Source: Vibrio echinoideorum (lineage in GTDB: Bacteria; Pseudomonadota; Gammaproteobacteria; Enterobacterales; Vibrionaceae). From it: 64,000 nucleotides of DNA. The stretch spans positions 3,286,001 through 3,350,000 of the forward strand of contig NZ_AP025483.1 of assembly GCF_024347455.1 (NCBI RefSeq). The letters run 5' to 3'. Shown here in pieces: positions 8,045 to 60,819 of this stretch (its first letter is position 1; each line of letters begins with the position of its first letter). The position numbers and the translations under genes are program-made. The notes under the pieces were generated by a model. The model did no database searches and had not been told where the DNA came from. It worked only from the letters and a program-made list of their open reading frames with translations.

Positions 8045-8229
8045 ATAAACAGCCTAAATATAAGGTAAAAGACAAGTATAGTAGGAGCCTTAAGCTACCT
8101 AATCATCCAAGAAATGTCACTCTTTCGATATTTATCAAGGCCGTTCTTTTCGTCTTTTATTTAAGGTCGTGTCCTTCTGTTCTCCCCTACCTGTATATCC
8201 TGCATGTTTTTCTCACCCAATACCTGCCT

Positions 8230-8352
8230 TAAGCTCTTCGATACTCGCTTACCCGAATCCCGGATCCGCCCTTAAGCTCTTCACATCTCGTTTACCCATA
8301 CCACCCATCTGCTCTTAAGCTCTTCGAATCCCGTTTACTCGCATCCCGTATC
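8230..8352 (-). repeat. 44-bp-family repeat array (about three reverse units)
   Basis: Three tandem degenerate units, each beginning CTTAAGCTCTTC and ending near CATCTGC or GTATCTATACTC. The homologous place in the right duplicate (25146-25198) has only about one unit, so the unit number has changed between the copies. The stretch 8045-8485 otherwise holds only this array and the terminator below. Confidence 0.75.
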
Positions 8353-8485: not shown

Positions 8486-8840
8486 CTACTTAACTAAAAT
8501 ATCGCCTGACATTTCTGCTGGGATAGCAATACCAGACAGAGAAAGCATCGTTGGTGCTAAGTCAGACAGCTTGCCGCCTTCTTTGAACTCAACGTCTTTG
8601 CTACCCACGTAGATAAGTGGTACAGGTAGGTTAGTGTGCGCCGTGTGGATGCCGCCCGTTTCTGGGTTTACCATCATTTCCGCGTTACCGTGGTCTGCAG
8701 TGATAAGCAGTTGGCCATCGGCTTCTTTGATTGCTTCAACCACTTTACCAAGACATTCATCTAATAGGCCCAACGTTGAATAAACTAATAGCAACAAGCA
8801 AATCAAAACTAAAGACTCGTGTGGGGTAAAACTTGCGCCG
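8486..8840 (-). pseudogene. Chimeric pseudogene: wecA fragment fused to gpmI C-terminus
   Basis: Bases 8486-8765 encode the last about 93 residues of phosphoglycerate mutase GpmI ([14 protein letters not shown]... to [10 protein letters not shown]), nearly identical to the end of the full gene at 25265. Upstream of it, 8766-8840 matches the middle of the wecA-like gene (28612-28690; encoded VYSTLGLL and preceding residues). The junction lies in a shared ATTC-xCTA microhomology. The fusion cannot be active as either enzyme: the GpmI phosphotransfer domain with the active-site Ser is gone. Confidence 0.85.
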
Positions 8841-10927: not shown

Positions 10928-12559
10928 ATGGGTAGACAATCAAATGAAAAAAAACGCAACCGAGCCAACAATGCCGGCGGCGTTCCCGTCGATGCGTATA
11001 ACGTCGCCCTTGCCATCGCCAATGTGTTGCATGAACTCAGACCCAAGACGTCGGGCGTGCTGACTGAACCCACTACGCCCCTCAACCTTTATCACATTTA
11101 CTTCCTGTATTTATGGATCGCAGGCCATCTGTCTGGCATCGAAAGAGAACAGGATATTCCCGATCTGGTGTTGGTCTCAGGGCGAGTCGATTGTGCGCTT
11201 CATCACCTTCGCCGAGTGCGTGAAGGTGGCGTTTCATGGGTCGAATATGCCATACCTTGCGCCCTGGCAAAGGAAACCGTGTATTTATGGCAACCCATGC
11301 CAGAAGCGCTCAATGCCGTCTTTAGCTATTGGCTCACTCATCATGACACGGAGCTTCGCCTCACTAAAATGCAAAAGAAACAGCTCTTTTGGCGATTAAA
11401 AAAGAGAAAGCTACGCACGCCGGAGGCGCTGAGAAGCCAACTTGTGCTGCGAAAAGACCTCTTGTATTCCTACATCGAGCGAATGGCACATTGCGATCCT
11501 TATCTCTCACTTCCAGCTCAAAAACTCATCACAGCCAAGAAAGTCCACCATCACAGTGCACTGAGTTACCAAATGCTGAACTGCGATCAAATTCGCTATG
11601 AGATTTTTTGTGCGCACAACCGCTATTTGCAGAGACTCATTCCCCAAATAAACCAGCGTCATATTAAACCCTTTTGTGATGTCAGGCTTCCCACCACTGG
11701 CGCACTTATTCCCGTCTTTACAACACTTAACGAGCGTCCCCCTTACCTGAAAAAAGCAGGCGCGATCGTGGCGTTCACTCTCGAACTGACCGAGGGCGCT
11801 CGAACCTATATTCCAATACCGCCCATTTCCATTGGCTCTACGCGCGCGATACCGATTCCCAAGCTGAGCCTCTTCTTTGGTCACCTTCGCCAACAACTGG
11901 CAACGGCACCAGAGAAAAACGCCTCCCAAGACGCGCTTCGTGAGTATTACAACGCGCGCACCTACGAGCTGGCGTTGTTATTTGTCCTTCTTACCGGCGC
12001 TCGTCCTACTCACCACATCTCGATAGAGCGGGAAGCCTGCTTTGATTTACAACGCGCCCTTATCAAAGACAAGGGACGCTACCGCCTTATCGATATTCCG
12101 AACTACTTACGACAAGCGATTGAGTCTTACCTTAAACTTCAAGCGCACGTGCTCCAAACGTTAGCGCCCAATGACGCCTCTGCCATGACGACCCTGTGGT
12201 ACTTGATTGATGAGAACAACGCCGCCGTTCCCCTCACCGCAAAAACCTTGAGGTTGTTTATGCATGCACAGTGGCAGCATTGCTTTCAACAAAGGCTGGG
12301 GGCCCCCGAAGAAAAAGTCGTCCCTTACCAGCTTCGTCACAGCTTTGCCCAACACGCCTTGATGGCCACTCACCCACGCTTAACCACCCAACAAATTGAT
12401 GTACTGATGGGCCACAGCGAACTGGGTGAACACCTTGGCAGCGCTTATGCTTTTCAAGCTTGCAACCAAACATTGATTGCGCATTTGAACCACTGGCCAT
12501 CGCGGCTGCAGCTCTCTGCCATTACGCCCTGCCCTTCAAAAAAGGACCGTGCCTTATGA
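10928..12559 (+). CDS. Large tyrosine recombinase I of an integrative element
   Basis: A 543-residue DNA strand-exchange protein, much larger than phage integrases (about 350-400). The C-terminal catalytic domain is recognisable: Arg359 in LLTGARP, then PYQLRHSFAQH (Tyr467 in the usual His place, Arg470, His471), LMGHSELGEHL (His496) and the nucleophile Tyr507 in GSAYAFQ. The N-terminal about 330 residues match nothing I know. AAGGA precedes the ATG. The TGA overlaps the next gene's ATG (ATGA), so these genes form an operon. The base composition looks richer in G+C than the surroundings, suggesting transfer. Confidence 0.85.
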   Translation: MGRQSNEKKRNRANNAGGVPVDAYNVALAIANVLHELRPKTSGVLTEPTTPLNLYHIYFLYLWIAGHLSGIEREQDIPDLVLVSGRVDCALHHLRRVREGGVSWVEYAIPCALAKETVYLWQPMPEALNAVFSYWLTHHDTELRLTKMQKKQLFWRLKKRKLRTPEALRSQLVLRKDLLYSYIERMAHCDPYLSLPAQKLITAKKVHHHSALSYQMLNCDQIRYEIFCAHNRYLQRLIPQINQRHIKPFCDVRLPTTGALIPVFTTLNERPPYLKKAGAIVAFTLELTEGARTYIPIPPISIGSTRAIPIPKLSLFFGHLRQQLATAPEKNASQDALREYYNARTYELALLFVLLTGARPTHHISIEREACFDLQRALIKDKGRYRLIDIPNYLRQAIESYLKLQAHVLQTLAPNDASAMTTLWYLIDENNAAVPLTAKTLRLFMHAQWQHCFQQRLGAPEEKVVPYQLRHSFAQHALMATHPRLTTQQIDVLMGHSELGEHLGSAYAFQACNQTLIAHLNHWPSRLQLSAITPCPSKKDRAL

Positions 12560-15126
12560 ACCGTCAAAGCCACACCGCAAAACACATCCATCACTTCTAT
12601 CAACAGCAGTCGATAGCGTGCACTGAAGTTGACACCTTCGAGGCCTTCTTAACGCTGCTTTCCCAAGAGAGGGGCCAAGAAAGTGAGCATGAACGCCAAT
12701 TGACCGAGTCACAAATGGCCTCGATAAACCGAGCCATTTCAGGTATCCCAACAGGCCGGCAAAGAGCCTTAAAACGGGCGCGTGATGAGACGCTTTACTA
12801 CCTAAACCAGGTGTGTGGCTGGGTCTTACCACCGGTAAAGGTGCAACAATTTAACGATCATGAACACTTGTGGTTGGTCTCGCTGTATCAACAAAGTGCA
12901 AGGGCTCATGCTATCTCTATGCACTACCAACAAGAGAGCCAGCACCGTATCAAGCAAAGAGGAGCCCCAAACTTGGCATGGACCGTGTTGACCTTGATGA
13001 GAGAAGTGGCGCCTCTGCCGCTCAACGCTTGGTGTGAAAGACTCAATGATCCCACCCCGCTGGAGCGCATTGGCGATCAACTCACCCTAACCATCACGCA
13101 CCCTGTTAACCTGTCGTATTTTGATGATACCGAACCCGTCAGTTTTACGCGCTACGCCGTATCACCGCTTGCTGCCCGCGCCTTCTATGACTGGCAGTGC
13201 CGACAAGAGCCGGGCAACCCAAGAGTGACACTTAACCGATTGCTCAACTCACTCGATGATTTTTATCCCTCTGCGCAGCGCAAAGCGCTTACCCCTCATC
13301 AATGGCAACAATCTGTCCAAACCTTATGGCTCCATCGCTTCGCCATCCCCCCTGAAATATTAAAAGATTTCTCTGAGCCCATGCGCCATGTAAGTGCGTT
13401 ACCACAAGAGGCGGCCTCATCGCGCGTAGCCACAGCGCAAGATATTTATCAGCCGCCACCGTTTGCGAAGATACCCTCCCGAGCCCCAAACCAAGAGACT
13501 CCGTTTCATCGCTGGCCTCACGCCATGCTCATCAAGTCGCTCAATACGCCCCACCAAGCCGCGCCCACTCAACCCGAGTGGCAAGCAGACAACCTGTTGC
13601 CCCGCTTATTGTTTGATTATGTGCAAGAACTGAAGCAATTTGGCGGTGTGAAAAAAAACACCCTCAGCCCCGCCACCTTGCTGCGCTACACCAGTTTTAA
13701 AAATGAACTGTCGACGACCCCACTCCCTCTCTCGATCGCCAATGACAGAGAAGCCCTGCAACAATGGGCCAAAGATCGATACCGCCTCATCCAAGACGAG
13801 ACAATGGAAAAATGGACTCTGTATCAATTCTTCCGTTTTCTTACTCAGCAATCCATCACTGAGCACTTAGATCTCTCGACCTTCATCAAACCGACCCAAA
13901 GCCTAAAAATTGATGCCCTTTCTCTTAGCGCTGAAGAGGTGCACCACCTGGTCACTCAGTTATTAACGCACAGCCTGTCCCCGATGCAGGCGTTGTTTGC
14001 GAGTGTCAGCGCGTTATTGAGTTATTACGGCGCCCTTCGACGCGGGGAACTCTTACGCCTGCGCCTTCAAGATATTCGATGCACCCACGAAAAAGGTCAG
14101 TTATTTGCGATCTACATTACCAATACAGAGGAAGGCAAAACAAAAAGCGGAGACACGCGCACGGTTCAGGTTGTGATGCCCGAAATCGGCGCCAAATTAA
14201 TACGGTTATTACTGGCGTTCAAAGCCAACCGCCCTCCTAGCGAGCCATTCATTGGCTTTGAAGACGAGTCCATCCATTTACGAGCGCGCCACTACCTTTT
14301 GCCTATCACGAAAGTGCTCAAACAATTACACGGTAAAAAAGCGCGCTTTCATCACCTTCGTCACAGCGGCGCCAAGCTGCTCTATCAACAAGCACTTTGC
14401 CTTGCTAACGGTGCGGCGCCAAAGGCTTGGCATAAAACGCATCAACCCGTCACCGCGTCTCTCTTCTCAACATCCGTTGTTGAGCAGCGATTTCAATACT
14501 GGTTGCAAGGGCGTTCATTTTCAGAGTTAAACAATATGCTGCTGTTTGATGAAATCGGTCGAATGCTGGGCCATCAACACTATGCGACAACTCGACTGCA
14601 TTACCTGCATGGTATGGAATGGGTCGCGCCTGCCTTTCTCCCTCAACAGCGAGAATACACACATGCCGAGCTGAGATACCTCTGGGGAATGAAGCCAGGT
14701 TCCAATGATATCACTCGTCTTCTGATGAGGCTCAGCCCTCAATACGCCGAGCTTTCATCCTCTGAAAAGCAGCGCCACCTGCCGAGCTTTACTCATGCAC
14801 AGCTGACGGAGGCTCTGAGCCAACGTTTGGGCAGCAAGCGCAAACCAAATGGTGATAAAGAACAGCTTCAAGAGGCGGAGTCAAACGACAACGAGTGGAT
14901 TGGACTTTGGACAAAAGGCGTCTCAAGTGGAACCCAAACCCGCCCTTATCGTTTTCAGTGGGAAACTCGAGAGCAAATCAAACGCTTAAAAGAAACGCCT
15001 TTGGCTTTTTCCATGGTGAGTGACGCATGGCGCGCCTTTGGGCAATACCAAGGCATTGAATGGAATAAAGCCGCTACGTCCCCTTGGCGAGCTACACCTC
15101 GAAAAGAAACCGCCGCAAAGCAATGA
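12556..15126 (+). CDS. Very large tyrosine recombinase II (856 residues)
   Basis: Second strand-exchange protein of the block. The catalytic domain is at about residues 450-690: Arg495 in GALRRGEL, Lys528/530 in EEGKTKSGD, FHHLRHSGA (His599, Arg602, His603), MLGHQHYATTR (His673) and nucleophile Tyr683 in LHYLHG. The domain has an insertion of about 60 residues between the HxxR and GH motifs, and an about 170-residue C-terminal extension. The N-terminal 440 residues are of unknown fold. I chose the ATG at 12556, which overlaps the previous stop (ATGA). The complete catalytic set suggests activity. Confidence 0.85.
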   Translation: MNRQSHTAKHIHHFYQQQSIACTEVDTFEAFLTLLSQERGQESEHERQLTESQMASINRAISGIPTGRQRALKRARDETLYYLNQVCGWVLPPVKVQQFNDHEHLWLVSLYQQSARAHAISMHYQQESQHRIKQRGAPNLAWTVLTLMREVAPLPLNAWCERLNDPTPLERIGDQLTLTITHPVNLSYFDDTEPVSFTRYAVSPLAARAFYDWQCRQEPGNPRVTLNRLLNSLDDFYPSAQRKALTPHQWQQSVQTLWLHRFAIPPEILKDFSEPMRHVSALPQEAASSRVATAQDIYQPPPFAKIPSRAPNQETPFHRWPHAMLIKSLNTPHQAAPTQPEWQADNLLPRLLFDYVQELKQFGGVKKNTLSPATLLRYTSFKNELSTTPLPLSIANDREALQQWAKDRYRLIQDETMEKWTLYQFFRFLTQQSITEHLDLSTFIKPTQSLKIDALSLSAEEVHHLVTQLLTHSLSPMQALFASVSALLSYYGALRRGELLRLRLQDIRCTHEKGQLFAIYITNTEEGKTKSGDTRTVQVVMPEIGAKLIRLLLAFKANRPPSEPFIGFEDESIHLRARHYLLPITKVLKQLHGKKARFHHLRHSGAKLLYQQALCLANGAAPKAWHKTHQPVTASLFSTSVVEQRFQYWLQGRSFSELNNMLLFDEIGRMLGHQHYATTRLHYLHGMEWVAPAFLPQQREYTHAELRYLWGMKPGSNDITRLLMRLSPQYAELSSSEKQRHLPSFTHAQLTEALSQRLGSKRKPNGDKEQLQEAESNDNEWIGLWTKGVSSGTQTRPYRFQWETREQIKRLKETPLAFSMVSDAWRAFGQYQGIEWNKAATSPWRATPRKETAAKQ

Positions 15127-15133
15127 CGAGGGA

Positions 15134-15469
15134 ATGATCAATGGCAAGCAATTGTATTTTCTTAGCCCATGCAACCAAAAGGTGGAAAAAGCGCTCCACA
15201 CCCTCAAGCAATCACCGCTCAAATACCATTGTCATATCACGCTGCATCAAAACCGAAAACGTCTCGACAGTAAAAAATGGGACTTTATACAGGCGGCTTT
15301 ACTCACAGCAAAAGACACCGCGAATAAAATCATCATCCCCACCGGTCGCACTCAACTCAAGATAGCGTTGGAGTTAGAGGTCACCGATCCACTTCTTCTT
15401 GAGCAATTTCAAACCTGGTGGAACACCATGATACTTAACGCCTCACAGCCAAAAGGACACACATTATGA
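15134..15469 (+). CDS. Small unknown protein in the recombinase operon
   Basis: 111 residues from the ATG at 15134 (GAGGGA directly before it), ending in TGA that overlaps the ATG of the next gene. It begins MINGKQLYFLSPCNQKVEKA and has no membrane segment. No family recognised. Its position between a recombinase and the clamp-like gene, with coupled translation, suggests an accessory recombination or DNA-processing factor; this is inference. A frame at 15141-15365 in another register was rejected because it lacks the coupling. Confidence 0.65.
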   Translation: MINGKQLYFLSPCNQKVEKALHTLKQSPLKYHCHITLHQNRKRLDSKKWDFIQAALLTAKDTANKIIIPTGRTQLKIALELEVTDPLLLEQFQTWWNTMILNASQPKGHTL

Positions 15470-16695
15470 ACACATTGAACTTTCAACCAGAAGTACACGC
15501 ACGCATTACCGAGCTGGTTAGCGGCATCAAAAAAGGCAGCGAGCATCCCTTTGTCACCTTCATTGTCACTGATAAATCGCTTCACCTCATTGGCGGCGCG
15601 ACGGAGAAGCTCATCATGACCACGTTGGACAGAGCGTCGGATTGCACATTGGACAACGCCGCTTTCTCGTTTAGCGCCACCGCTTTTGCCAACCTATGGC
15701 TGTGCCAAACCAATCATATCGACCAAAAAGAAACGATTTCATTGCAGCTCCGTCATGACAACCAACAAGACGGCGTCGTGCTGGAAGGGCGAACCGAACT
15801 GAACTCCTTTCGCTACGCCCTCGCGCAGCCCGCTTGTGAACATCATCTGGCCTTCTTTGATAGCGTCATGACGCACCCCAAGCAAATTATTGAGACCAAG
15901 CAAGCGCTGGCGATATGTCAACTGGCCAATACCTGCACCCCTTTCTCAGTGTTTGAGGTCAACAAAGACAGCAACCGCGTTCAAATAGAGCGAGACAACG
16001 ACATCATTCCTTTCGCGCTTCCTAAGGGTATGAACATCGACATCGATATGGCCCTGACTCCAGAGGCCAAGCACTCACTGGAATCGATCGCGCAAACAAC
16101 ACAAAGCGAGACCTTGTCTGTCTATATCGATGATGAGCAAGCGATGTTTAGCGATGGAGAGCAGGTGTATTGCCACTCCCTGGCGCCCTTGCGCGCCTAC
16201 CGAGAAAGACAGCAGCAACACTTTGAGTTAGAAGCCAAAGTGGTGATTGATGTTCATGAATTTAAAGCCGAAAGGGACAATTTTCAAAAAATCGAAGAGA
16301 TTAAAAAAACCAACCAAGCCTTACTTTACCTCACCCCTGAGAGTATGTATTTCGCGAGCTTAGCACCCAAAGTTGGCGCCTTAATGGCACTCACGACCAA
16401 GAGTATCATTACTTCACAAGAGCAACTGTATAGCGTCAACCTCAACGCCTTATCAAATGTACGTATCAAAGACATCACATCGGCTGATCAAGTCAAGATG
16501 ACGGTGCTGCGCAGCGCGCAAGGTGAACTCAAATTGGGGTTTCACAATGACGAAGATGGGAAGCACCCTTATTACAGTGTGCCTTTGGAGCGTGCTTTGC
16601 CACTCTTGCCTGAGCTAAAACGGATCATCGATATCTCACAGCTCTCAAGTGATAAGCCTGAACAAAACGATCTGTTTGGATTTGATGACGTGTAA
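15466..16695 (+). CDS. Divergent sliding-clamp (DnaN)-like protein
   Basis: 409 residues. Three successive about 125-residue segments follow the pattern of the DNA polymerase III beta clamp: segment 1 has FIVTDKSLHLIGGATEK and VVLEGRTELNSFRYAL; segment 2 has LSVYIDDEQAMFSDGEQVYC and LRAYRER, resembling clamp domain 2 (RVQIG...HVGDFIFTS...DYRR); segment 3 ends with YYSVPLE where clamps end YVVMPMRL. The tail adds EQNDLFGFDDV, in which QNDLF (400-404) matches the clamp-binding pentapeptide consensus. Assignment is by my own comparison only. It is the last gene of the four-gene block. Confidence 0.55.
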   Translation: MNTLNFQPEVHARITELVSGIKKGSEHPFVTFIVTDKSLHLIGGATEKLIMTTLDRASDCTLDNAAFSFSATAFANLWLCQTNHIDQKETISLQLRHDNQQDGVVLEGRTELNSFRYALAQPACEHHLAFFDSVMTHPKQIIETKQALAICQLANTCTPFSVFEVNKDSNRVQIERDNDIIPFALPKGMNIDIDMALTPEAKHSLESIAQTTQSETLSVYIDDEQAMFSDGEQVYCHSLAPLRAYRERQQQHFELEAKVVIDVHEFKAERDNFQKIEEIKKTNQALLYLTPESMYFASLAPKVGALMALTTKSIITSQEQLYSVNLNALSNVRIKDITSADQVKMTVLRSAQGELKLGFHNDEDGKHPYYSVPLERALPLLPELKRIIDISQLSSDKPEQNDLFGFDDV

Positions 16696-16763
16696 TGCCA
16701 TTAATGAGAGTCAGTAAGTGCTCAGACGTCGCGTAGGGAAGGCTTGATAACAAGACCGATGCC

Positions 16764-16784
16764 GATAAGTAGTGATTCTACAAT
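16764..16784. repeat. Short dispersed repeat, second copy
   Basis: ATAAGTAGTGATTCTACAAT matches 708-727 with one difference, and both are preceded by GCTTGA-AACAAGAC-GAT. It lies upstream of higB2 and just after the clamp-like gene, possibly near the right edge of that block. Confidence 0.45.
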
Positions 16785-16846
16785 CAACATGTCTAAGATC
16801 AGATCCATTGCCTTAAAAGTCACAACTACGTTAATCACGTATAGCT

Positions 16847-16875
16847 TCGCCATCTGTACGTTACTTGCGTATACT
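16847..16875 (+). promoter_or_regulatory. Probable higBA2 promoter
   Basis: TCGCCA (16847-16852), 17 bases, then TATACT (16870-16875), six bases before the higB2 ATG. The transcript would start at or very near the ATG. The -35 is weak (four of six). Confidence 0.45.
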
Positions 16876-16881
16876 TTGCGA

Positions 16882-17208
16882 ATGAAAAGTATATTTGTCG
16901 AATCAACCATATTTGAAAAGTATCGTAATGAATATCTAAGTGATGATGAGTTTAGGCTTTTTCAAGCTGAGTTAATGTCTAATCCAAAACAGGGGGACGT
17001 GATTCAGGGTACAGGTGGTTTGCGAAAGATTCGAGTTGCAAGTAAGGGCAAGCGTGGCGGGTCTCGTATTATCTATTACTTCCTCGATGAAAAGCGTCGG
17101 TTCTACTTACTGACAATTTATGGCAAGAATGAAATGTCCGATTTAACCGCAGACCAAAAGAAACAACTAAAGGCTTTTATGGAGGCGTGGCGTAATGAGC
17201 AATCGTGA
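16882..17208 (+). CDS. higB2: HigB2-type toxin
   Basis: mRNA-cleaving toxin of 108 residues. The start at 16882 gives MKSIFVESTIFEKYRNEYLS, matching what I recall of V. cholerae HigB2 nearly residue for residue. VIQGTGGLRKIRVASKGKRG is the conserved core, and SRIIYYFLDEKRRFYLLTIY the C-terminal part of the fold. A longer upstream frame exists but lies over the promoter. It overlaps higA2 by 14 bases. This copy is intact, in contrast to the related broken toxin at 9618. Confidence 0.95.
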   Translation: MKSIFVESTIFEKYRNEYLSDDEFRLFQAELMSNPKQGDVIQGTGGLRKIRVASKGKRGGSRIIYYFLDEKRRFYLLTIYGKNEMSDLTADQKKQLKAFMEAWRNEQS

Positions 17209-17509
17209 TCTATTTACAGAGTTAAGTTCAGCTCTTATTGAGGCTCAAGAGTATTCCAAGGGCAAACTAACTCTTAAAACTCATCATGTTAAAGATATCC
17301 GCGAACTAGATATTTCACCTGATGAAATCGTGAGTATTCGTGAACAGTTTAATATGTCGCGTGGTGTGTTTGCGCGTTTGCTGCATACATCATCTCGTAC
17401 ACTAGAAAACTGGGAACAAGGGCGTAGCGCACCAAATGGACAAGCGGTAACTCTTCTAAAATTGGTTCAGCGTCATCCGGAAACTCTGTCTCACATCACT
17501 GAGCTCTAA
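17195..17509 (+). CDS. higA2: HigA2-type antitoxin
   Basis: 104-residue partner of HigB2. The N-terminal part is a toxin-neutralising, probably flexible segment (MSNRDLFTELSSALIEA...). The C-terminal part is an XRE helix-turn-helix (REQFNMSRGVFARLLHTSSR) that binds the operator. It begins inside the toxin gene (GAGG upstream). Complete module. Confidence 0.94.
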   Translation: MSNRDLFTELSSALIEAQEYSKGKLTLKTHHVKDIRELDISPDEIVSIREQFNMSRGVFARLLHTSSRTLENWEQGRSAPNGQAVTLLKLVQRHPETLSHITEL

Positions 17510-17559
17510 GCGCTTAAGAATTTAAAATACTTTTTGTGACTGCTCACCGCCTATCGGGC

Positions 17560-17800
17560 GATGCTTCTTTCGTTAGCCATTGCTCGATAGTATCGAGACT
17601 TACGCAGCTTCACTAAGTGCTTACCTTTTTCTTTGCAGCTTGTACTCCAATTTAACGACAAAGCTATGCCACGAGGCATCCGCTATGTGTTTCGCCAGTT
17701 TGCGGTTTTTCATCATATTGGATTTCAACGTCTCAACAATCACAGCGTGGTTTTTGTCAACGAAAGTTAGACTCACGGTCAAGCCAGCAAGGCTGCTTTC
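17560..17800 (-). pseudogene. Remnant of a TnpB (IS200/IS605 OrfB) gene
   Basis: The minus-strand frame 17776-17621 encodes VSLTFVDKNHAVIVETLKSN, MMKNRKLAKHIADASWHSF and VVKLEYKLQRK, which corresponds to the internal TnpB segment (…ENL.V..M.KNRKLAK.I.DASW..F...LEYK). A shift then leads into GKHLVKL, also family-like. The catalytic C-terminal zinc-finger region and the N-terminus are absent. It explains most of the gap 17510-17929. Confidence 0.7.
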
Positions 17801-17929
17801 TTGATTGCGCAGTCTTGTGAGACAGTTGTGCCACTTCGCCTCTTCATGAGTATCTATTTACTCACAATTTGAAAAAAACAGCATTATTGCGTATTATTTT
17901 ACACATAAAATACAAGTGAGGTGCAGCCA

Positions 17930-19291
17930 ATGGAAGAATTAACAGTACAAGCTTTTATCAAAGGTGAATGGCTCGATGTTGCTCTCATCTCATTCCCTAA
18001 GAGTGCTCAGCATAACTTCCAAATTTCTGAACTCAATTATCTCAGTGATTATGCTCTCTATCATCATGATAAAGACGATTTGCATGCAGTTTCGATCAAT
18101 CACCCTGTTTCTTTTTTCTTTGATGATATGGGAAAACCTGGTTGGTTAAGATTCCTAGACGACATAATGCCAAGTGGTGCTAGTAGAAGGTACTGGGTCA
18201 AGCACTTAGATATTGAGGATCTAAGCTTCGATGAACAAGACTTTGTTTTACTTAAGTTTGGGACGATGTCGCCTATCGGCAATTTACGGGTGAAAGAGTC
18301 TCTTCCTGAGCGTTACGAAATATCAGACAACCTCTATTTCTCTGTTGAGGATGTTAAGAACCGAGCGGGTGATTTCCTCGACTATGCACAGCAAAGAGGC
18401 GCAGCGGCAGGTGGAGCGACGGGCGCGGGAGGAGAGGCCCCTAAATTACTCCTACGTAGCGAGATAACCCCTCACACTGGCGACGAAAAAATATGGATAG
18501 ATCCCTATCAAGATGACCCTAGCAATCACGATTTACACTACCTGGTAAAATACCCCAGAGGTTCGAGAAGCACCGTCGACTGTAATATTCTAAGAGCTGA
18601 GTTCTATTACTATCATGCACTTACTGAAATGGGTTTTGATACGATTCCAATACAAGGCATGCGCTTAGAAGAAGGTCTTAATTACCCTTCGTTATGGCTA
18701 CCTAGATTTGATATTCAAATCAATAAGGAACAGGTGGAAAAATTCGGTATGGAATCCGTATACTCCATGCTAAATAAAGGTGCAGGAGTCACTCTCAACC
18801 ACGAAGCCACTATCAGAAGCCTCATAGAAAAGATGACCCAAAGCCACATGGTTCAACATCAAGGGTATGCTTTCGACCCCCAGGAGTTCGTCGTTGAGTG
18901 GGTAAAGCGAGATTTACTCAATATCTTGTTTGGGAATAGTGACAACCACGGAAGAAATACTTCCTTCCTGAGAGGGGACGGTTTTATTAAGCTGGCTCCT
19001 ATATACGACTTTGCACCAATGAAAGCCGATCCCGAGGGCATTCCAAGAAGCACAAAATGGCAAGCACCACTCGAAGTCGGCGGAACCTATGATTTTATAG
19101 GAATAGCTGAATCCCTGTCAGATCTAGTACCAACAGCCGTCCTTCTTGAAGAACTAAGAGATACAGCCGCTAAATGCCTTGACCTTAAAAAGAGACTGGA
19201 AGAACAAGGTGTACCAAAACAAATCTTGGAGATGCCAGCAATTGGGTTTAATCATATATCTGAAAAATTGACAAAATGGGGGCTAGCATGA
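17930..19291 (+). CDS. hipA: HipA-family serine/threonine kinase toxin
   Basis: Kinase of 453 residues from the ATG at 17930 (GTGAGGTG just before it). In E. coli, HipA phosphorylates glutamyl-tRNA synthetase; the target here is unknown. The catalytic loop is GNSDNHGRNTS (335-345, Asp338), the metal-binding motif is PIYDF (Asp360), and a Gly-rich loop GAAAGGATGAGGEAPKL (158-172) matches the HipA ATP-loop region. The sequence is divergent from E. coli HipA. The gene precedes and overlaps its presumed antitoxin (ATGA), reversed relative to classical hipBA. Confidence 0.88.
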   Translation: MEELTVQAFIKGEWLDVALISFPKSAQHNFQISELNYLSDYALYHHDKDDLHAVSINHPVSFFFDDMGKPGWLRFLDDIMPSGASRRYWVKHLDIEDLSFDEQDFVLLKFGTMSPIGNLRVKESLPERYEISDNLYFSVEDVKNRAGDFLDYAQQRGAAAGGATGAGGEAPKLLLRSEITPHTGDEKIWIDPYQDDPSNHDLHYLVKYPRGSRSTVDCNILRAEFYYYHALTEMGFDTIPIQGMRLEEGLNYPSLWLPRFDIQINKEQVEKFGMESVYSMLNKGAGVTLNHEATIRSLIEKMTQSHMVQHQGYAFDPQEFVVEWVKRDLLNILFGNSDNHGRNTSFLRGDGFIKLAPIYDFAPMKADPEGIPRSTKWQAPLEVGGTYDFIGIAESLSDLVPTAVLLEELRDTAAKCLDLKKRLEEQGVPKQILEMPAIGFNHISEKLTKWGLA

Positions 19292-19764
19292 GTAAGAGTA
19301 GCCGATCAAATAAAGAGACTGTACATGAGACCGTAGCTCGCCTAAGAGCAAGCCGAGAACAGCCAAAGTCAATAGCTTCCCATCAACCAACACACTCGGG
19401 AAAGAGTAAATTACAACCAAATACTCAAGCAAAACAGAAGGTATCTAAGAACTCAAAAGCGATCAGGGCATCTGATCGTAAAACGGCTATGGACGATATT
19501 ATCAAACAACTCTTGCTTGGTGGGCTCACACAAGGCCAAGCCCTTAGAACACTGCGAGTGAACATACTAGGCCTAAAACAGGATGTTTTTGCAAAACTCG
19601 TCGATGTCTCAAGAAAAACACTCTCAGATATTGAGAATGATAGAGGTAGCTACAACACCGAGGTTCTAAACAAAGTATTCAAACCTTTTGGTATGAAAAC
19701 GGGGTTAATTCCCTCATCGCCGAGTTTACTCATTTCTCTATTAAACAGTAACGAGACAGAGTGA
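19288..19764 (+). CDS. HipB-like HTH antitoxin with long N-terminal arm
   Basis: 158 residues from the ATG at 19288, overlapping the hipA stop. The helix-turn-helix is C-terminal (LGLKQDVFAKLVDVSRKTLS, about 97-116), after an about 80-residue basic, Ser/Gln/Lys-rich, likely disordered arm. Classical HipB (about 88 residues) has no such arm. It probably represses its own operon and neutralises HipA. Its coupling with hipA is the main support for the pairing. Confidence 0.75.
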   Translation: MSKSSRSNKETVHETVARLRASREQPKSIASHQPTHSGKSKLQPNTQAKQKVSKNSKAIRASDRKTAMDDIIKQLLLGGLTQGQALRTLRVNILGLKQDVFAKLVDVSRKTLSDIENDRGSYNTEVLNKVFKPFGMKTGLIPSSPSLLISLLNSNETE

Positions 19765-20050
19765 TACAAACTACAGTGAATTCTGATGCAATTCCACAAA
19801 GACGGAGAACAAGCTGACAGGTTTGGGTTTGATGACACATCAGCGGCGCACCAATGAACCATCATTTTTGATGAAAAAACCACCAAAAGCACTGGACATC
19901 GATCCAGTAAACTACTAGAGTCAATATTGAACGTTTTATAGGCTATCGGAAGAAATGGGCGTGAAGACGCGTTTTGAGATTCGGAAGATACCGTGAAATA
20001 CGTTGGCAGATGATGACCTTGCGTCACAACGCCACACACAATATGCAGTT

Positions 20051-20080
20051 GGGATAGGAAGGCGGCAACCTTCCTACCCC
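20051..20080. other. Strong hairpin in the gap before the integrase
   Basis: TAGGAAGG (20055-20062) pairs with CCTTCCTA (20069-20076) and the flanking GGG/CCC also pair. No clear T-run on either side. The rest of 19765-20148 shows no gene I can support. The hairpin might mark an attachment site or a regulatory RNA structure. Confidence 0.4.
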
Positions 20081-20148
20081 GTACCGGCTGCGCACCTTAA
20101 AGCAACCCAGCCGATGGCTCGATTCTAGCGAATTCCATTGGTGAGGGA

Positions 20149-20167
20149 CAGATCTATTTAAGATCTG
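20149..20167 (+). promoter_or_regulatory. Inverted repeat just before the integrase ribosome site
   Basis: CAGATCT - ATTTA - AGATCTG, a perfect 7-bp stem about 10 bases upstream of GGAGG (20177-20181). Could be an operator or a translation-controlling hairpin. Confidence 0.45.
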
Positions 20168-20185
20168 ATATCAATGGAGGCCGCT

Positions 20186-21349
20186 ATGGCTCACCTTCGC
20201 ATCCGTCCTAATGGGCGCATTCAGTTCGATCTTCATTTGTACGGCCAACGCTTTCGCGAAGGCACCAAACAAATGGCCACGCCCAAAAATGTCAGGCTTG
20301 CTCAAGCCACACTCAAGCAAATGAACGCCGAGATTGACCTTGGCACGTTTCAATACCGTGATTACTTTCCACACAGTAAAAAAGTGGCCTTGTTTGAACG
20401 CTTACAGCGCGAGAAGTACCCCGACCACCTGTACCCGTTTTTTAATGACTTTGCGATTCAGTGGTATGAGCGTCAAAAAGGCAATTGGAAAAGCAGCTAC
20501 CAAGGTGTGGTCAAAAACACGCTGGAACACTACCTCATTCCGCACTTTGGTAATACGCTCGTTTCTGAGGTATCACTGTCTCAAGTGGAGTTTTTTCGTC
20601 AGACGCTGCAAGAAGCTCGTAAGGCCAATGGCGAGCGACAACTCACCAACAAGCGCATCAATAATATTTTATGGCCGCTGATTGCCATTCTGAGCCTCGC
20701 CGCCGAAGAGCATCACTTTGATTACCCATTTCGACGCTACAAATCCCTGAAAGAGGAAAAAGCGGATTCGAAACCGCTGACCATGGATGAAGTCCGTACT
20801 TTCTTAGAATGCTGTGATGAGCAGTGGCATGATTATTTTTTACTGCGATTTTGGACGGGCATGCGAAGTTGTGAAGTGCATGGCCTGTATTGGGAGCACA
20901 TTGATTTTGACCATCGCTTGATTCGCGTGAGACAAAATTATGTGAATGGGGAAATTTGTGATGTGAAGACGCCGAAGTCACGTCGTGATTTGCAGATGTG
21001 CGACACCTTGTTCGCGGCGTTAAAACGTCAGTGGGAAATGAGAGATGAGTGCAGCCCATTTGTGTTTCCCTCTAAAACAGGACAAGGGTTAGATACGCAT
21101 TACATCAGCAAGCATGTTTGGCACCCAACGTTGAAAAAAGCAGGCCTGAAACCACGTCGCGCTTACGAAACGCGCCATACGGCTGCGGTCCTGCACATTG
21201 CCGCGCATGAGAATCCGCTCTATATCTCACACAAACTCGGACACAGCGATACCAAATTGCTGTTTGAGGTGTACGCCCCTTATGTCGCCAATGCTTCCAG
21301 ACAAGACGGAAACGCGTTTAACGATATGATGTTAGGAGGCGCGGCATGA
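20186..21349 (+). CDS. int: Phage-type tyrosine integrase
   Basis: 387-residue site-specific recombinase from the ATG at 20186 (GGAGG five bases upstream; the frame also opens at 20174 without one). The N-terminal arm-binding domain starts MAHLRIRPNGRIQFDLHLYG, like the DUF3596/Arm type. The core catalytic residues are Arg227 (WTGMRSCE), the AYETRHTAA motif (Arg330, His331), LGHSDTKLLFEVYA (His353, nucleophile Tyr363). It is complete. It overlaps the next gene by four bases. It may belong to a small element distinct from the large recombinases upstream. Confidence 0.9.
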   Translation: MAHLRIRPNGRIQFDLHLYGQRFREGTKQMATPKNVRLAQATLKQMNAEIDLGTFQYRDYFPHSKKVALFERLQREKYPDHLYPFFNDFAIQWYERQKGNWKSSYQGVVKNTLEHYLIPHFGNTLVSEVSLSQVEFFRQTLQEARKANGERQLTNKRINNILWPLIAILSLAAEEHHFDYPFRRYKSLKEEKADSKPLTMDEVRTFLECCDEQWHDYFLLRFWTGMRSCEVHGLYWEHIDFDHRLIRVRQNYVNGEICDVKTPKSRRDLQMCDTLFAALKRQWEMRDECSPFVFPSKTGQGLDTHYISKHVWHPTLKKAGLKPRRAYETRHTAAVLHIAAHENPLYISHKLGHSDTKLLFEVYAPYVANASRQDGNAFNDMMLGGAA

Positions 21350-22056
21350 TGATACTGACCTTTAACCGCGCTCAATACTTCCATCAAAACCTAACGGATA
21401 ATGATCAACTGTGCGCCTTTGCATTAGGCTCTGAACTGCCTTCGGTTTATACACTCATCGGCAACAAACAAGAAATGGCGTTAAGTTCATTGAACGAACA
21501 ACGCCGTTTAGAAGCGATAGCCAAGCAATGTTATGAGCGTTTTATGGAAGATCCAACGTTGCAATTGGTACTCGATAAGTACGCCGACAGTATGATGACC
21601 TCTGGCATGGTTATGTTTCACGATGTTCGATTACACGCTCAGTCCCCTGGGCTGACTTTAGCGAAGTACTACTGCGCACTTAAACAAACGGATGGGCATT
21701 TGGATAGATCGATGGTGTGGGAAAAACACCTTCAATGGTGCCAAGCGTTATCTTTTGCTTTGTATGAACATTGCCAAGATCCACGCAGTGATATTTGTTA
21801 TGGCGAGAAGACCGTCATTATCGATAAGCCGCATAACAGGCAGTGTTTCAGCTCAACCGATATCAGTACAGGCAAGTGCCTTGGCAGTGGCAAGACTAGC
21901 GCTCCTGATAACACGGGAATACCGATAACATGGGTGTCCCGTATTTTTCATTCAAGTTTAAACTCAGAAAGTGCGTCTTTCACGCTTAGTCATAATGTCA
22001 CCTGTTTTAGTCTCGAGATGATCATACATCACCTCTTAATCAGGTGGCCAAATTAA
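21346..22056 (+). CDS. Unknown protein coupled to the integrase
   Basis: 236 residues, starting at the ATG that overlaps the integrase stop. The first about 165 residues look like a genuine soluble protein (MMILTFNRAQYFHQNLTDND...). The tail after about residue 175 is low quality and crosses a REP-like hairpin (21910-21945), so the original end is probably lost. No family recognised. Small genes in this place of integrative elements often act in excision or transfer control, but nothing here shows that. Confidence 0.55.
   Translation: MMILTFNRAQYFHQNLTDNDQLCAFALGSELPSVYTLIGNKQEMALSSLNEQRRLEAIAKQCYERFMEDPTLQLVLDKYADSMMTSGMVMFHDVRLHAQSPGLTLAKYYCALKQTDGHLDRSMVWEKHLQWCQALSFALYEHCQDPRSDICYGEKTVIIDKPHNRQCFSSTDISTGKCLGSGKTSAPDNTGIPITWVSRIFHSSLNSESASFTLSHNVTCFSLEMIIHHLLIRWPN
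21910..21945. repeat. REP-like hairpin with GTGTCC-GTATTTTT motif
   Basis: AACACGGGA (21910-21918) and TCCCGTATT (21937-21945) can pair. The TGGGTGTCC-GTATTTTT part recurs at about 23887-23904 and in shortened form at about 31037-31052. The middle copy borders a decayed RAYT transposase, which suggests these are REP-type sequences. Confidence 0.5.
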
Positions 22057-22096: not shown

Positions 22097-22153
22097 TTGT
22101 TATATGCCTTTCATGTACCTATACTTAATGCGCACATTAAATACGCATAGGTA
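22097..22153 (+). promoter_or_regulatory. ccdAB promoter and operator
   Basis: TTGTTA (22097-22102), 17 bases, TATACT (22120-22125). The inverted repeat TACCTAT (22116-22122) ... ATAGGTA (22147-22153) overlaps the -10 and reaches the ccdA ribosome site, an arrangement suited to autorepression by CcdA/CcdB. Confidence 0.65.
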
Positions 22154-22159
22154 ATTATC

Positions 22160-22405
22160 ATGAGAAACGCATATAGCACGCAAGCGCCTAAAAAAGCTGC
22201 AAACTTAAGCTTAAATAGCGAATTACTCGCTGAAGCTAAGCGCCTGAATATAAACCTCTCAGCAACAATGGAAAAAGCGCTTGAAAAAGAAGTTAGCCAA
22301 CGCCGTAAAACTGAGTGGTTGGAGCAGAATGCAGATGCTATCAGTGCTTGCAACGAACTAACCGAAAACCACAGTCTGTTTTCCGATTCTTACAGAATAT
22401 TCTAA
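22160..22405 (+). CDS. ccdA: CcdA-family antitoxin
   Basis: 81-residue antitoxin: N-terminal ribbon-helix-helix DNA-binding part (KKAANLSLNSELLAEAKRLN, then INLSATMEKALE) and a C-terminal CcdB-binding arm ending TENHSLFSDSYRIF, as in CcdA. The stop shares one base with the ccdB start (TAATG). Confidence 0.92.
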   Translation: MRNAYSTQAPKKAANLSLNSELLAEAKRLNINLSATMEKALEKEVSQRRKTEWLEQNADAISACNELTENHSLFSDSYRIF

Positions 22406-22722
22406 TGTCACAGTTTTCACTATACCAAAATAACGATAAAAGCACTGCTACCGCTTATCCATACTTTGTTGATGTTCAAAGTGAAATGCTTGATACGCTA
22501 AATACCCGACTGGTGATCCCATTAACACCAGTTGAAATGTTAGAAAAGAAAGCCCCTACTCACCTATGCCCAGTAATCCATATTGATGAAGGTGACTTCG
22601 TGCTCCTCACTCACCAAATGGCAAGTGTGCCAACTAAGATCTTACGTGATCCAGTCAATGAATTGAGTACATTTAGAAACGAAATCATTGCTGCTATTGA
22701 CTTTCTGATTACTGGCATGTAA
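22405..22722 (+). CDS. ccdB: CcdB-family gyrase toxin
   Basis: 105 residues starting MSQFSLYQNNDKSTATAYPY. Typical CcdB features are PYFVDVQSEMLDTLNTRLV and IPLTP, and the C-terminal helix ends in IDFLITGM; E. coli CcdB ends with GI after a similar helix and uses the last residues for gyrase contact. It appears intact and likely poisons GyrA. Chromosomal ccdAB pairs are common in Vibrio accessory DNA. Confidence 0.92.
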   Translation: MSQFSLYQNNDKSTATAYPYFVDVQSEMLDTLNTRLVIPLTPVEMLEKKAPTHLCPVIHIDEGDFVLLTHQMASVPTKILRDPVNELSTFRNEIIAAIDFLITGM

Positions 22723-22732
22723 CGCTCGATAT

Positions 22733-22833
22733 ACGCCAATAGCTCCGGTGAGCTCACCTTCGCTTTCACCACCAAGTCCACATGAAAGGGGCTTTGTGAA
22801 GATCGATAGCAGAGGTATCAAGGAAAATTTTCA
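22733..22833 (-). pseudogene. Mosaic of TA gene fragments (PIN start, MNT end)
   Basis: The minus strand starts MKIFLDTSAID (22833 down), the typical N-terminus of PIN-domain toxins, and after a frame change reads PFHVDLVVKAKVSSPELLAY, which resembles the end of MNT nucleotidyltransferases (compare PFKVDLLVKHRITSNELLAH in mntA here). Both are tiny fragments. They occupy most of the 22723-23071 gap; the rest shows nothing I can support. Confidence 0.5.
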
Positions 22834-24818: not shown

Positions 24819-25541
24819 TATCAATAATCAACACCATCAGCACGCTAATAAAAATACGCTCGATTATTTGAGTTTAATCCCATAAATGTCAATATGGGCT
24901 TTGCTGCGCTTTCATTAAGTTTTGCAGTCGTTGCTTCCAACGGTCTGGGTTTGAGTTCATATAAACAGCCTAAATATAAGGTAAAAGACAAGTATAGTAT
25001 GAGCCTTAAGCTACCTAATCATTCAAGAAATGTCACTCTTTCGATATTTATCAAGGCCGTTCTTTTCGTCTTTTATTTAAGGTCGTGTCCTTCTGTTCTC
25101 CCCTACCTGTCTGTATATCCTGCATGTTTTTCTCACCCAATACCTGCCCTTAAAGCTCTTCGAATCCCGTTTACTCGTATCTCGCATCTATACTCAAATT
25201 CCAGATACAAAAAAACGGCCACACTCGCGTGCAGCCGTTCTAGTATTCGATGAAAGTTAAATGATTACTTAACGATCACGTCACCTGACATTTCTGCTGG
25301 GATATCAACACCAGACAGAGACAGCATTGTTGGTGCTAAGTCAGACAGCTTGCCGCCTTCTTTGAACTCAACGTCTTTGCTGCCTACGTAGATAAGTGGC
25401 ACTGGTAGGTTAGTGTGCGCCGTATGGATGCCGCCCGTTTCTGGGTTTACCATCATTTCCGCGTTACCGTGGTCCGCGGTGATAAGCAGTTGGCCATCGG
25501 CTTCTTTGATTGCTTCAACCACTTTGCCAAGACATTCGTCT
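24819..25541. repeat. Right copy of the gpmI 3' direct repeat
   Basis: Matches 7242-8765 from just before the phd stop, but 7321-7977 (most of mntA and hepT) is deleted at TATGGGC/TTTGCTGCG. It keeps a small hepT start trace (24898-24960), the shared intergenic DNA, a shorter 44-bp repeat stretch (25146-25198), the terminator and the gpmI end. Confidence 0.8.
25208..25239 (-). terminator. Intrinsic terminator after gpmI
   Basis: ACGGC (25215-25219) and GCCGT (25234-25238), with inner CAC/GTG pairs, followed on the minus strand by seven T. About 25 bases after the gpmI stop. Confidence 0.8.
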
Positions 25542-26797
25542 AGCGACTCTACGGCTTTAACCGCTGCATCGTAAACGCCAGTGTGGCCAACCATGTCACA
25601 GTTAGGGAAGTTACACACGATAGCGTCGTATTTACCGCCTTTGATTGCGGCAACAAGCTTTTCAGTCAGCTCTGGCGCGCTCATTTCTGGTTGTAGGTCG
25701 TACGTTGCTACTTTTGGAGAAGCAACAAGCTGACGCTCTTCGCCTTCAAACTCGTCTTCTTTACCGCCGTTGAAGAAGAACGTCACATGCGCGTATTTCT
25801 CTGTTTCAGAGATACGTAGCTGCGTTTTGCCTTCTTTCGATAGCCATTCACCGTAAGTGTTCTCTAGAGAAGCCGGTGGGAATGCACATAGAAGTGGGAT
25901 GTCTGCTGCGTATTGAGTCAGCATCACGAAATCGATCGCTGGGAATACGTTACGCTCAAAACCGTCGAAGTTAGGCACGAACGCACGTGTGATTTCACGA
26001 GCACGGTCAGCACGGTAGTTCATGAAGATAACCGCATCGCCATCAACGATAGCGGCTGATTCTTCGCCTTCCGCTTTGATTTCAGTCGCTTTCACGAACT
26101 CATCGTTTTCATCACGAGCGTAAGCCGCTTCTAGGCCAGCTACTGCTGTATCAAACGTAAATTCACCTTTCGCTTCAGTAAGAAGGTCATAAGATTCTTG
26201 AACGCGATCCCAGTTGTTATCACGGTCCATTGCGTAGTAGCGACCAATAAGCGAAGCCACACGGCCTTTACCCAGTTTAGCGAACAACTCTTGGAAACGT
26301 GCCAATGTGTTTTCTGCGCTACGTGGCGGCGTATCACGACCGTCTAGGAATGCGTGTAGGTAGATTTTCTCTGCGCCACGCTCTGCTGCCATTTCAACAG
26401 CTGCGTAGATGTGATCTTCATGAGAGTGAACGCCACCTGGAGACATAAGACCCATGATGTGCACGGCTTTGTCTGCTTTAACCGCTTTATCAACAGCATT
26501 CACTAGCGCTTCAGTTTGAGCGAACTCGCCGTCTGCGATTGATTTAGTAATGCGCGTTAAATCTTGGTATACCACGCGACCCGCACCAATGTTGGTGTGA
26601 CCCACTTCAGAGTTACCCATTTGGCCATCAGGTAGGCCTACATCTAAGCCAGAAGCCGAGATTAGCGTGTTAGGTTGGTTAGCAATAAGACCGTCTAATA
26701 CAGGTGTATTAGCGTTCGCGATAGCGTTGTCTTGGTTGTCTTCACGGTAACCGTAACCGTCAAGGATCACTAGAGCCATTGGCTTCTTAGCTGACAT
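25265..26797 (-). CDS. gpmI: 2,3-bisphosphoglycerate-independent phosphoglycerate mutase
   Basis: Glycolytic enzyme interconverting 3- and 2-phosphoglycerate with two Mn ions. The 510 residues start [18 protein letters not shown] at 26797 (GAGGT nine bases upstream), as in the E. coli protein; an upstream in-frame ATG at 26815 is unlikely. [15 protein letters not shown] carries the catalytic Ser, VHSHEDH and [10 protein letters not shown] follow, and [11 protein letters not shown] is the second metal site. Full length. Its last about 93 residues are duplicated in the pseudogene at 8486. Confidence 0.97.
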
Positions 26798-28473: not shown

Positions 28474-29553
28474 CTATTTCGCTTCTAACTTCTTCCACTT
28501 TCTTACGATCTTCGCCATCTTAAACGAATGCGTCATCGCGTAAGTGTGGAATAAGAAACACGCCACAATGATGTAGAACATAATGTATTCCGGCACTTGG
28601 AAGTATTCGCCTAATAGCCCCAGCGTTGAGTACACCAATTGCACCAAGCAAATCACCACTAAAGACTCGCGTGGTGTGAAACCGATGCGCTGCATAATGT
28701 GATGAAAGTGCTCGCGATCCGGTTTAAACGGAGAATGCCCCTTACGAATCCGACGGATCATAATGGCCATCATATCAATCAAAGGCACTGCAATTAACCA
28801 CAAGGCGGTGACAGGTCGAATCATATACTTGCCCTCCTCGTGTTGCGTTCCGCCAATTAAAACCCAGATGACAATGAAGCCGATCATCATGCTGCCGGCA
28901 TCACCCATAAACACTTTACGCAGCTTGCCAAAACACCCTAAATTAAACAGAACAAAGGGTAATAAGATCACCACCATCACTGCCATAAAAAAGGCGTAAA
29001 ACTCGAGTTCATAAGCGAAGAACACCACACCTAACGATGCAAACACTACCATGCTTAAGCCACCCAGCAGCCCATCAATACCATCGACCATGTTAAAGGC
29101 GTTAATGGCAGCGATCACGGCAATCACAGTAACAATACTGTCGACCACTATTGGGAAATCTAGCACGCCTAAGCCGAATACATCACCAACATGAGAGAGG
29201 GTTAATCCAGAATAAGGCATGATGATCAGAGCTAAGATGGCTTGCACACCCATTCGAAGCTTAAAGCTGATGTCAAAGCGGTCGTCAGCCACCCCAATCA
29301 ATACCAGTGCCGTTAAGCACGCTGCGGCTATCTCTACATTTTTGAACTCCGCCGCATTCACGTAAAGGAAGTACAACACGGTGATGCAGAGAGAGATCCC
29401 GCCCACCAAAGGAACAACACCTTCATGATGTTTTCTGGCATTCGGTTTATCGACTAAGCCAATGGCATAGCCCACTTTACGCATGCAGTACAACACTGAA
29501 AAGGAGAGAAAGAAGAACATAGAGAGTTCGATAAGGTAATCAAACAGTGACAT
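28474..29553 (-). CDS. wecA: WecA-type initiating glycosyl-1-phosphate transferase (copy 2)
   Basis: 359 residues with the same motif set as copy 1: LVDKPNARKHH, GVADDRFDIS, INAFNMVDGIDGLLGG, KVFMGDAGS, PDREHFHH, and about 11 membrane helices. It is on the same strand as the polysaccharide genes further right, but separated from them by the DinJ/AbiE region. A piece of this gene (about 28612-28690) also appears in the chimeric pseudogene at 8766-8840, showing past rearrangement. Which sugar it transfers is not decided by sequence. Confidence 0.92.
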   Translation of the reverse strand: MSLFDYLIELSMFFFLSFSVLYCMRKVGYAIGLVDKPNARKHHEGVVPLVGGISLCITVLYFLYVNAAEFKNVEIAAACLTALVLIGVADDRFDISFKLRMGVQAILALIIMPYSGLTLSHVGDVFGLGVLDFPIVVDSIVTVIAVIAAINAFNMVDGIDGLLGGLSMVVFASLGVVFFAYELEFYAFFMAVMVVILLPFVLFNLGCFGKLRKVFMGDAGSMMIGFIVIWVLIGGTQHEEGKYMIRPVTALWLIAVPLIDMMAIMIRRIRKGHSPFKPDREHFHHIMQRIGFTPRESLVVICLVQLVYSTLGLLGEYFQVPEYIMFYIIVACFLFHTYAMTHSFKMAKIVRKWKKLEAK

Positions 29554-59877: not shown

Positions 59878-59936
59878 GAGCAGATGCGGGATTCGAGTAT
59901 CGAGATTCGAAAGGCTTAAGAGCTGATGAGAAAAGT
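59863..59936 (+). repeat. 44-bp-family repeat, two units at the amidase end
   Basis: Unit 1 GAGCAGATGCGGGATTCGAG then TATCGAGATTCGAAAGGC; a degenerate second unit follows. The left edge overlaps the amidase stop region. Confidence 0.7.
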
Positions 59937-60644: not shown

Positions 60645-60646
60645 AA

Positions 60647-60819
60647 GAGCAGATGCGAGTAACGGGTAAACGGGATGCGAAGAGCTGAAAGAGCAGATGC
60701 GAGTAACGGGTAAACGGGATGCGAAGAGCTGAAAGAGCAGATGCGGGTAGCGAGTAAACGGGATGCGAAAGGCTTAAGAGCAGATTCGGGTGAAGAATAG
60801 CGAGATTCGAAGAGATGAA
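60647..60819 (+). repeat. Tandem array of the 44-bp repeat (four units)
   Basis: Units 60647-60690 and 60691-60734 are identical (GAGCAGATGCGAGTAACGGG, then TAAACGGGATGCGAAGAGCT and GAAA). Units 60735-60777 and 60778-60819 are degenerate. It abuts the holin stop. No unique spacers of constant length, so not CRISPR. Confidence 0.9.

Follow-up and report, generated by a model that had tools for sequence, protein, structure and literature searches.

Large tyrosine recombinases encoded with a sliding-clamp relative in marine bacteria: a module family suggesting movement tied to the replication fork

Why should a relative of the sliding clamp be encoded side by side with large tyrosine recombinases? 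The question arises from a gene block of Vibrio echinoideorum in a stretch of 64,000 nucleotides (hereinafter the window; contig positions 3286001-3350000 of a 5.74-Mb genome), which the first-pass annotation had described as four genes on one strand, joined at two junctions by ATGA overlaps. We find that the block belongs to a seemingly undescribed module family of marine bacteria, comprising two large recombinases and a sliding-clamp relative, and our observations suggest that movement of these elements is coupled to the replication fork. The open reading frames of the block are indeed all on one strand (Table 1), and the ATGA overlaps are present at 12556-12559 and 15466-15469; the genes, however, number three, the second one being frame-broken. 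The GC content is 0.50-0.52 over about 11-16 kb, compared with 0.39-0.48 elsewhere in the first 25 kb of the window.

Table 1. Features of the block and of its right-hand continuation (window coordinates).
Feature	Position	Strand	Remarks
g1, 543 aa	10928-12559	+	tyrosine-recombinase fold; active-site Arg, Lys, Arg, His; no conserved nucleophilic Tyr
g2, large tyrosine recombinase, 856 aa from ATG	12556-15126	+	catalytic residues kept; frame break near the 3' end
C-terminal part of g2 in another frame, GTG start (formerly "small protein")	15020-15469	+	match to the g2 profile
g4, 409 aa, three-domain sliding clamp (DnaN-like)	15466-16695	+	C-terminal peptide QNDLF, clamp-binding type
Cargo: RelE-like toxin and MqsA-like antitoxin, then HipA and HTH protein	16744-19764	+	Pfam; absent from L023
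Conserved non-coding stretch ahead of int	19788-20173	+	starts with the decayed tail of another clamp gene
int, ordinary tyrosine integrase, 391 aa	20174-21349	+	Pfam Arm-DNA-bind_2 and Phage_integrase
g6, protein without an assigned family, 4-bp overlap with int	21346-22056	+	in part of the family only; 3' part diverged here

The supposed separate small protein turned out to be a fragment of g2. In 18 aligned relatives g2 is a single reading frame of about 930-1070 aa, and a g2 profile of 960 positions matches the product of 15020-15469 at positions 847-956. In the closest copy (locus L023 of genome G118, 96.4% identical DNA over 3.4 kb) the fragment is in frame with g2, and comparison with this copy shows that the window g2 has lost a small segment close to its 3' end, which shifts the reading frame. 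As both the profile and the frame of L023 place the supposed small protein at the C-terminus of g2, we reject it as a gene of its own and count three genes in the block.

The large recombinase itself matches Pfam Phage_integrase (E 2.2e-6). Arg490/491, Lys525, Arg597, His669 and Tyr679 are present in 19/19 sequences, and His594, the His of HxxR, is nearly invariant (90% or more); we take these positions to be the Arg, Lys, His-x-x-Arg, His and nucleophilic Tyr of the tyrosine-recombinase catalytic domain. Judged by its residues, g2 is a catalytic tyrosine recombinase, and the lack of catalytic domains that the first-pass annotation had named as fatal to its reading is not what we observe. Pieces of a g2 relative, at 30% identity, are seen on the 19-kb Shewanella plasmid pSA70-4 (CP078041.1, L082). 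The annotation had called both proteins large tyrosine recombinases: both do match the family, but g1 differs in the nucleophile. It has the tyrosine-recombinase fold with the active-site Arg, Lys, Arg and His, and no conserved nucleophilic Tyr follows the second His, the residue at this position being variable (S, N, R, D and others) over 29 sequences.

The clamp-like nature assigned to g4 is borne out by a genuine three-domain sliding-clamp fold over residues 1-377. The fold is common to g4 and DnaN, from which g4 differs by an identity of 8-15% in structural alignments and by a clamp-binding-type tail. A profile-profile comparison of g4 with DnaN is weak (probability 5-9%), and g4 escapes detection by PF02768 in those hosts that were searched; a normal dnaN is present in every one of them. 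In two hosts PF02768 also detects a second, divergent DnaN-like gene (G316:C125:7235-7597 and G707:C30:11042-11401), located on a contig other than that of the module. A basic character is not consistently seen in the inner helices of g4, and hence it is doubtful that the protein encircles DNA.

As a clamp-binding motif we considered a C-terminal QxxL(x)F or QL(S/D)LF, and the strict pattern used in the counts was the related Q.[DS][LM][FL]. It is present in 26/43 clamp proteins compared with 4/476 controls; among the 17/43 proteins without it, a few are truncated or frame-broken. The window g4 ends in QNDLF, a candidate peptide of the clamp-binding type, and the tail of g4 from L035 contains QADLF, a clamp ligand according to the title of 4k3o.

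The first-pass annotation had proposed to look for the same gene order elsewhere, and the module does recur, in 45 other loci, with the order g0-g1-g2-g4-int in the relatives. Its usual start, g0, is a gene of about 160-210 aa found upstream in 31/46 loci; the product has no convincing Pfam family and ends in a segment that by eye resembles a helix-turn-helix. The integrase gene int is located further downstream in the module, on the same strand, in 41/46 loci; L028, L041, L075 and L100 have enough contig and no int downstream, and L105 stops at the contig edge. For g6, neither Pfam (at E 0.1) nor PHROG (at E 0.01) gave a match.

The clamp gene follows g2 in 44/46 non-redundant loci, the window included (ten duplicate records were removed after an identity check), although this figure overstates the link between the two genes, as 20 of the 46 loci were found through the clamp itself, and hence the counts from recombinase-first searches are the fair ones. 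The clamp-first search found g4 in 21/329 family genomes (22 places, including the window genome), and g2 adjoins the clamp gene in all 22 places, 21 of them in short loci and one (L074) in a longer stretch. The recombinase-first search with the g2 alignment yielded 28/329 family genomes, four of which (G098, G106, G112 and G164) have only a distant sister type, with both types present in G215. Core-type g2 is thus carried by 24 genomes, and a clamp gene is present in 22 of them; no recognisable clamp gene was found in G037, where g2 is degenerate, and in G079, where it is truncated. A scan with two peptide patterns over a collection with one genome per species gave 31 loci, and in all 31 the clamp gene lies beside g2. 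The hosts belong to Vibrio, Photobacterium, Salinivibrio, Shewanella, Psychromonas and Ferrimonas, and include MAGs labelled Oceanospirillaceae, Tolumonas, Psychromonas and Robiginitomaculum. When 369 genomes sampled evenly across the class, a set that missed the Shewanella and Psychromonas hosts, were searched at E 0.001, the clamp protein was seen only in the genome of the window itself.

Sister modules were observed in five Vibrionaceae loci (L077-L081), with products of about 184-193, 764-841 and 1017-1074 aa, the last one being distantly related to g2. The first gene is not seen in L081, where the contig starts at that point, and no clamp gene was recognised alongside these modules at E 0.001.

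The genes of the module differ in how tightly they are bound to each other. In 33 loci, those where g1, g2, g4 and int are all close to full length, the pairwise identities correlate with Mantel r of 0.95-0.96 among g1, g2 and g4 and of 0.50-0.58 between these and int. By these sequence comparisons, g1, g2 and g4 co-evolve and int is exchanged between modules, being only loosely tied to the core; for instance, L025 and L042 share 98% identity in int and 20% in g4. The same pattern is seen in the window, whose int is 89-91% identical to that of L024, L025, L042 and L106, whereas the identity of its g4 to theirs is 15-34%, against 57% to L092. The latter, the closest relative of the window g4 beyond G118, is on a contig of a MAG labelled Robiginitomaculum, an alphaproteobacterial genus, which reflects either transfer or misbinning. 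The homology of the stretch before the window int to L025 starts approximately 54 bp before the end of the L025 clamp gene. As a decayed L025-like clamp-gene tail thus precedes the window int, the sequence suggests that an older g1-g2-g4 set was replaced beside the same int.

The block in the window is incomplete: g0 was not found when its remains were searched for (best E 0.10), and the module continues in int. Because g0 is missing and the last approximately 100 residues of g2 are in another frame, the window copy is probably inactive, a partly decayed relic. Toxin-antitoxin genes surround it. The 3-kb toxin-antitoxin and HipA segment between g4 and int is absent from G118, and a CcdB-type toxin segment to the right (22097-22733) is 97.8% identical in Vibrio thalassae L027 and 86.8% in L035; it lies on the right-hand side of the module in these three places, as exchanged toxin-antitoxin cargo. 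The approximately 385 bp before int are kept in the nearest relatives, the last 130 bp being conserved more widely; this stretch has no Rfam match at the gathering score, and an Rfam scan of it and of the window gave one match, far below that score. An imperfect intergenic repeat with units of approximately 40-45 bp is dispersed in the window (8226-8341, 25144-25189, 59864-59927 and 60645-60819).

Several observations speak for mobility of the module. In 12 close pairs the longest stretch in common is essentially the module itself: it begins near g0, extends to where int or g6 ends and measures about 7-8.5 kb. The DNA beyond it is mostly different, and in a few pairs the common stretch is in pieces. 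For example, L103 and L104 are 95.5% identical over 8.0 kb, and immediately to the right their DNA differs. Neighbouring segments are also common to both loci in the pairs L033/L036 and L024/L025, and in L101/L108 and L102-L104 shared segments are located at differing places around the module. The occurrence is patchy (21/329 family genomes); G034 and Shewanella algicola (G707) have two modules each, and pieces of second copies lie beside intact modules in L027, L033 and L101. The left border of L102 is not the element's own, as the end of an insertion sequence, presumably IS50, lies within g0.

No recurring end repeat, whether SE-like terminal inverted or direct, was recognised in a scan of 30 loci of undefined ends; neither element ends, nor an empty site (sought via the flanking polysaccharide genes), nor a circle was found. 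We considered 277-bp repeats of gpmI (8487-8763 and 25266-25542) as clean attachment sites, and rejected them since the duplication is longer and uneven, the left copy is fused, and the G118 module is located elsewhere. In the left repeat the copy of the gpmI 3' end is joined to a piece resembling a glycosyltransferase gene at 28605-28682, and an HI0074-type (nucleotidyltransferase substrate-binding) gene is seen in this repeat only. There was no sign of a phage origin: g4 has no match in phages or plasmids, and the g2 alignment found no relatives in viral contigs.

The first-pass annotation had named SE as the closest concept, which is apt as such, although gene order and content differ. In the excerpted text of PMC10214605, the SE operon encodes an ordinary-sized catalytic tyrosine recombinase, another whose N-terminus is very long, a protein that has the recombinase fold but lacks the catalytic motif, and a small auxiliary one; the hosts are marine Gammaproteobacteria, and a replication-needing copy-out mode is proposed. 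The other marks of SE are the order intA-tfp-intB-srap, imperfect 13-19 bp terminal inverted repeats with motifs C and C', attL x attR recombination without an empty site, strand bias and a 6-bp footprint. Our module similarly has a recombinase-fold partner without the nucleophile, a large recombinase, an ordinary one, a small protein and marine hosts. However, its order is g0-g1-g2-g4-int, its core is about 8 kb compared with 5.5-6.4 kb in SE (excerpts of PMC9345347), g1 retains the active-site Arg, Lys, Arg and His, and a sliding-clamp homologue is a regular member. The annotation had remarked that the clamp gene does not fit SE, which the same excerpts of PMC10214605 describe without a clamp. 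The GInt island (ginABCD) also has three recombinase-type proteins and a small protein, and it carries cargo of variable size (PMC5385486, in excerpt). As excerpted, it is flanked by direct imperfect repeats, its small protein is a helix-loop-helix one, and it has no further core gene; the clamp, which in our module lies beside g2 in 31/31 scan loci, is absent from this partial description (PMC5385486), and the module does not have the ginABCD composition. Since the descriptions of both lack a clamp and the gene order differs, we file the module under neither SE nor GInt.

Tn7, through TnsE, and the insertion-sequence systems work with the clamp of the host and are not known to be tyrosine-recombinase elements. 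According to the excerpted PMC5371812, TnsE and several IS transposases combine a clamp-binding motif with a replication-related orientation bias; here, in contrast, the clamp-fold protein is encoded by the element itself. The literature searched contained no article that connects a sliding clamp with a tyrosine-recombinase element.

We then considered the orientation relative to the replication fork in 33 genomes, those with short contigs being left out, and observed 31 head-on, two ambiguous and no co-directional cases. With dnaN as the origin mark, 10/10 main-chromosome elements are read against the fork, and an eleventh (G260) is head-on on its contig, as derived by hand. The third-codon GC skew agrees with dnaN in 6/6 controls and indicates head-on orientation in 7/7 further genomes, five of these elements being from Vibrio: two lie on replicons recorded as chromosome 2, the other three on a replicon or contig measuring 1.0-1.8 Mb. 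For a further 15 genomes (Shewanella, Psychromonas, Ferrimonas and Vibrio) the skew gives 13 head-on, two ambiguous (G709 and G290, where the total skew fits head-on) and no co-directional elements. The skew was calculated for stretches located about 80-120 kb away from the element in the first set and about 13-240 kb away in the 15 genomes; in several stretches the sign differed between genes on one strand and those on the other, and the mean was then taken as decisive. Control Phage_integrase genes on the main chromosomes of 8 of the 33 genomes are 24 head-on and 19 co-directional (nominal Fisher p 5e-6, the element counts not being independent, as several elements have the same surroundings, frequently next to polysaccharide genes). 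Of 110 control matches 53 were used, after matches to Xer recombinases, to genes of the element itself and on other replicons had been dropped, and 10 of these 53 were then excluded as lying near the terminus.

Such a bias could also arise from a fixed attachment site. Hence the module may be a site-specific island similar to SE or GInt, where the clamp-fold protein is merely an architectural subunit, and the orientation is caused by a one-way target beside polysaccharide loci. Polysaccharide genes (epimerase, UDP-glucose dehydrogenase, nucleotidyltransferase, glycosyltransferase) are indeed frequent to the right of int: Polysacc_synt_2 is found in 17/147 right-flank proteins compared with 7/104 left-flank ones, and UDPG_MGDP_dh in 13 compared with 2. 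The ordinary site-specific type of int and the inner helices of g4 agree with this explanation as well. Against it speak the clamp-binding-type tail of g4 and the head-on elements on both chromosome arms, on different replicons and in several genera; we regard it as rather unlikely, if still a serious competitor.

A second alternative is that g1, g2 and g4 constitute a separate system, for defence or for rearrangement of surface polysaccharides, which is carried on int-driven islands and is not itself the mover. The exchange of int between modules (as in L025 and L042), the four loci without int downstream and the toxin-antitoxin genes around the window copy would be expected in this case, but the recombinase active site of g2 with its invariant Tyr in 19/19 sequences and the presence of int downstream on the same strand in 41/46 loci would not. 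Moreover, a PADLOC scan of seven proteins for known defence systems gave no match at E 0.01, and we consider this alternative improbable. Finally, that the block comprises four independent genes, one encoding a small auxiliary protein like Srap or TnpC from the GTG start at 15020, is hardly credible in view of the g2 profile match and the intact frame of L023.

The reading we favour, with modest confidence, is that the window contains a decayed copy of an integrative element, whose core of g2, g1 and g4 acts together with int and usually g0 in a manner linked to the replication fork. The first-pass annotation had likewise proposed an integrative element with movement linked to DNA synthesis; the clamp-type tail and the head-on orientation speak for this indirectly, whereas neither element ends nor a circle nor an empty site emerged. 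Also against this reading stand the 17/43 clamp proteins that lack the strict tail pattern, the weak profile comparison with DnaN, the charge of the inner helices of g4, the remains of g2 without a recognisable clamp gene in G037 and G079, the loose tie of int to the core and the interdependence of the orientation counts. In such an element, g2 would cut and join DNA at the element ends, and g1 would serve as an architectural subunit of the synaptic complex. The clamp protein might dock the complex of g1 and g2 on the host clamp, or form a ring of its own; insertion or copy-out would thereby occur at the fork and in a single orientation. As a second catalytic recombinase, int would perhaps be responsible for the choice of target, and replication would turn the strand-exchanged intermediate into a double-stranded copy. 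More tentatively, and with slightly less than an even chance in our estimate, the family would represent a sixth group of tyrosine-recombinase transposons and the first with its own clamp, tethered to the fork via the clamp and its tail, inserting head-on only and copied out in a fork-coupled manner.

How the multi-recombinase elements SE, GInt and Tn554 complete transposition, and where replication enters, is an open question. A clamp homologue that co-evolves with the recombinases, together with its tail and the head-on orientation of the elements, makes replication coupling directly testable; if true, this would be a new use of the clamp fold.
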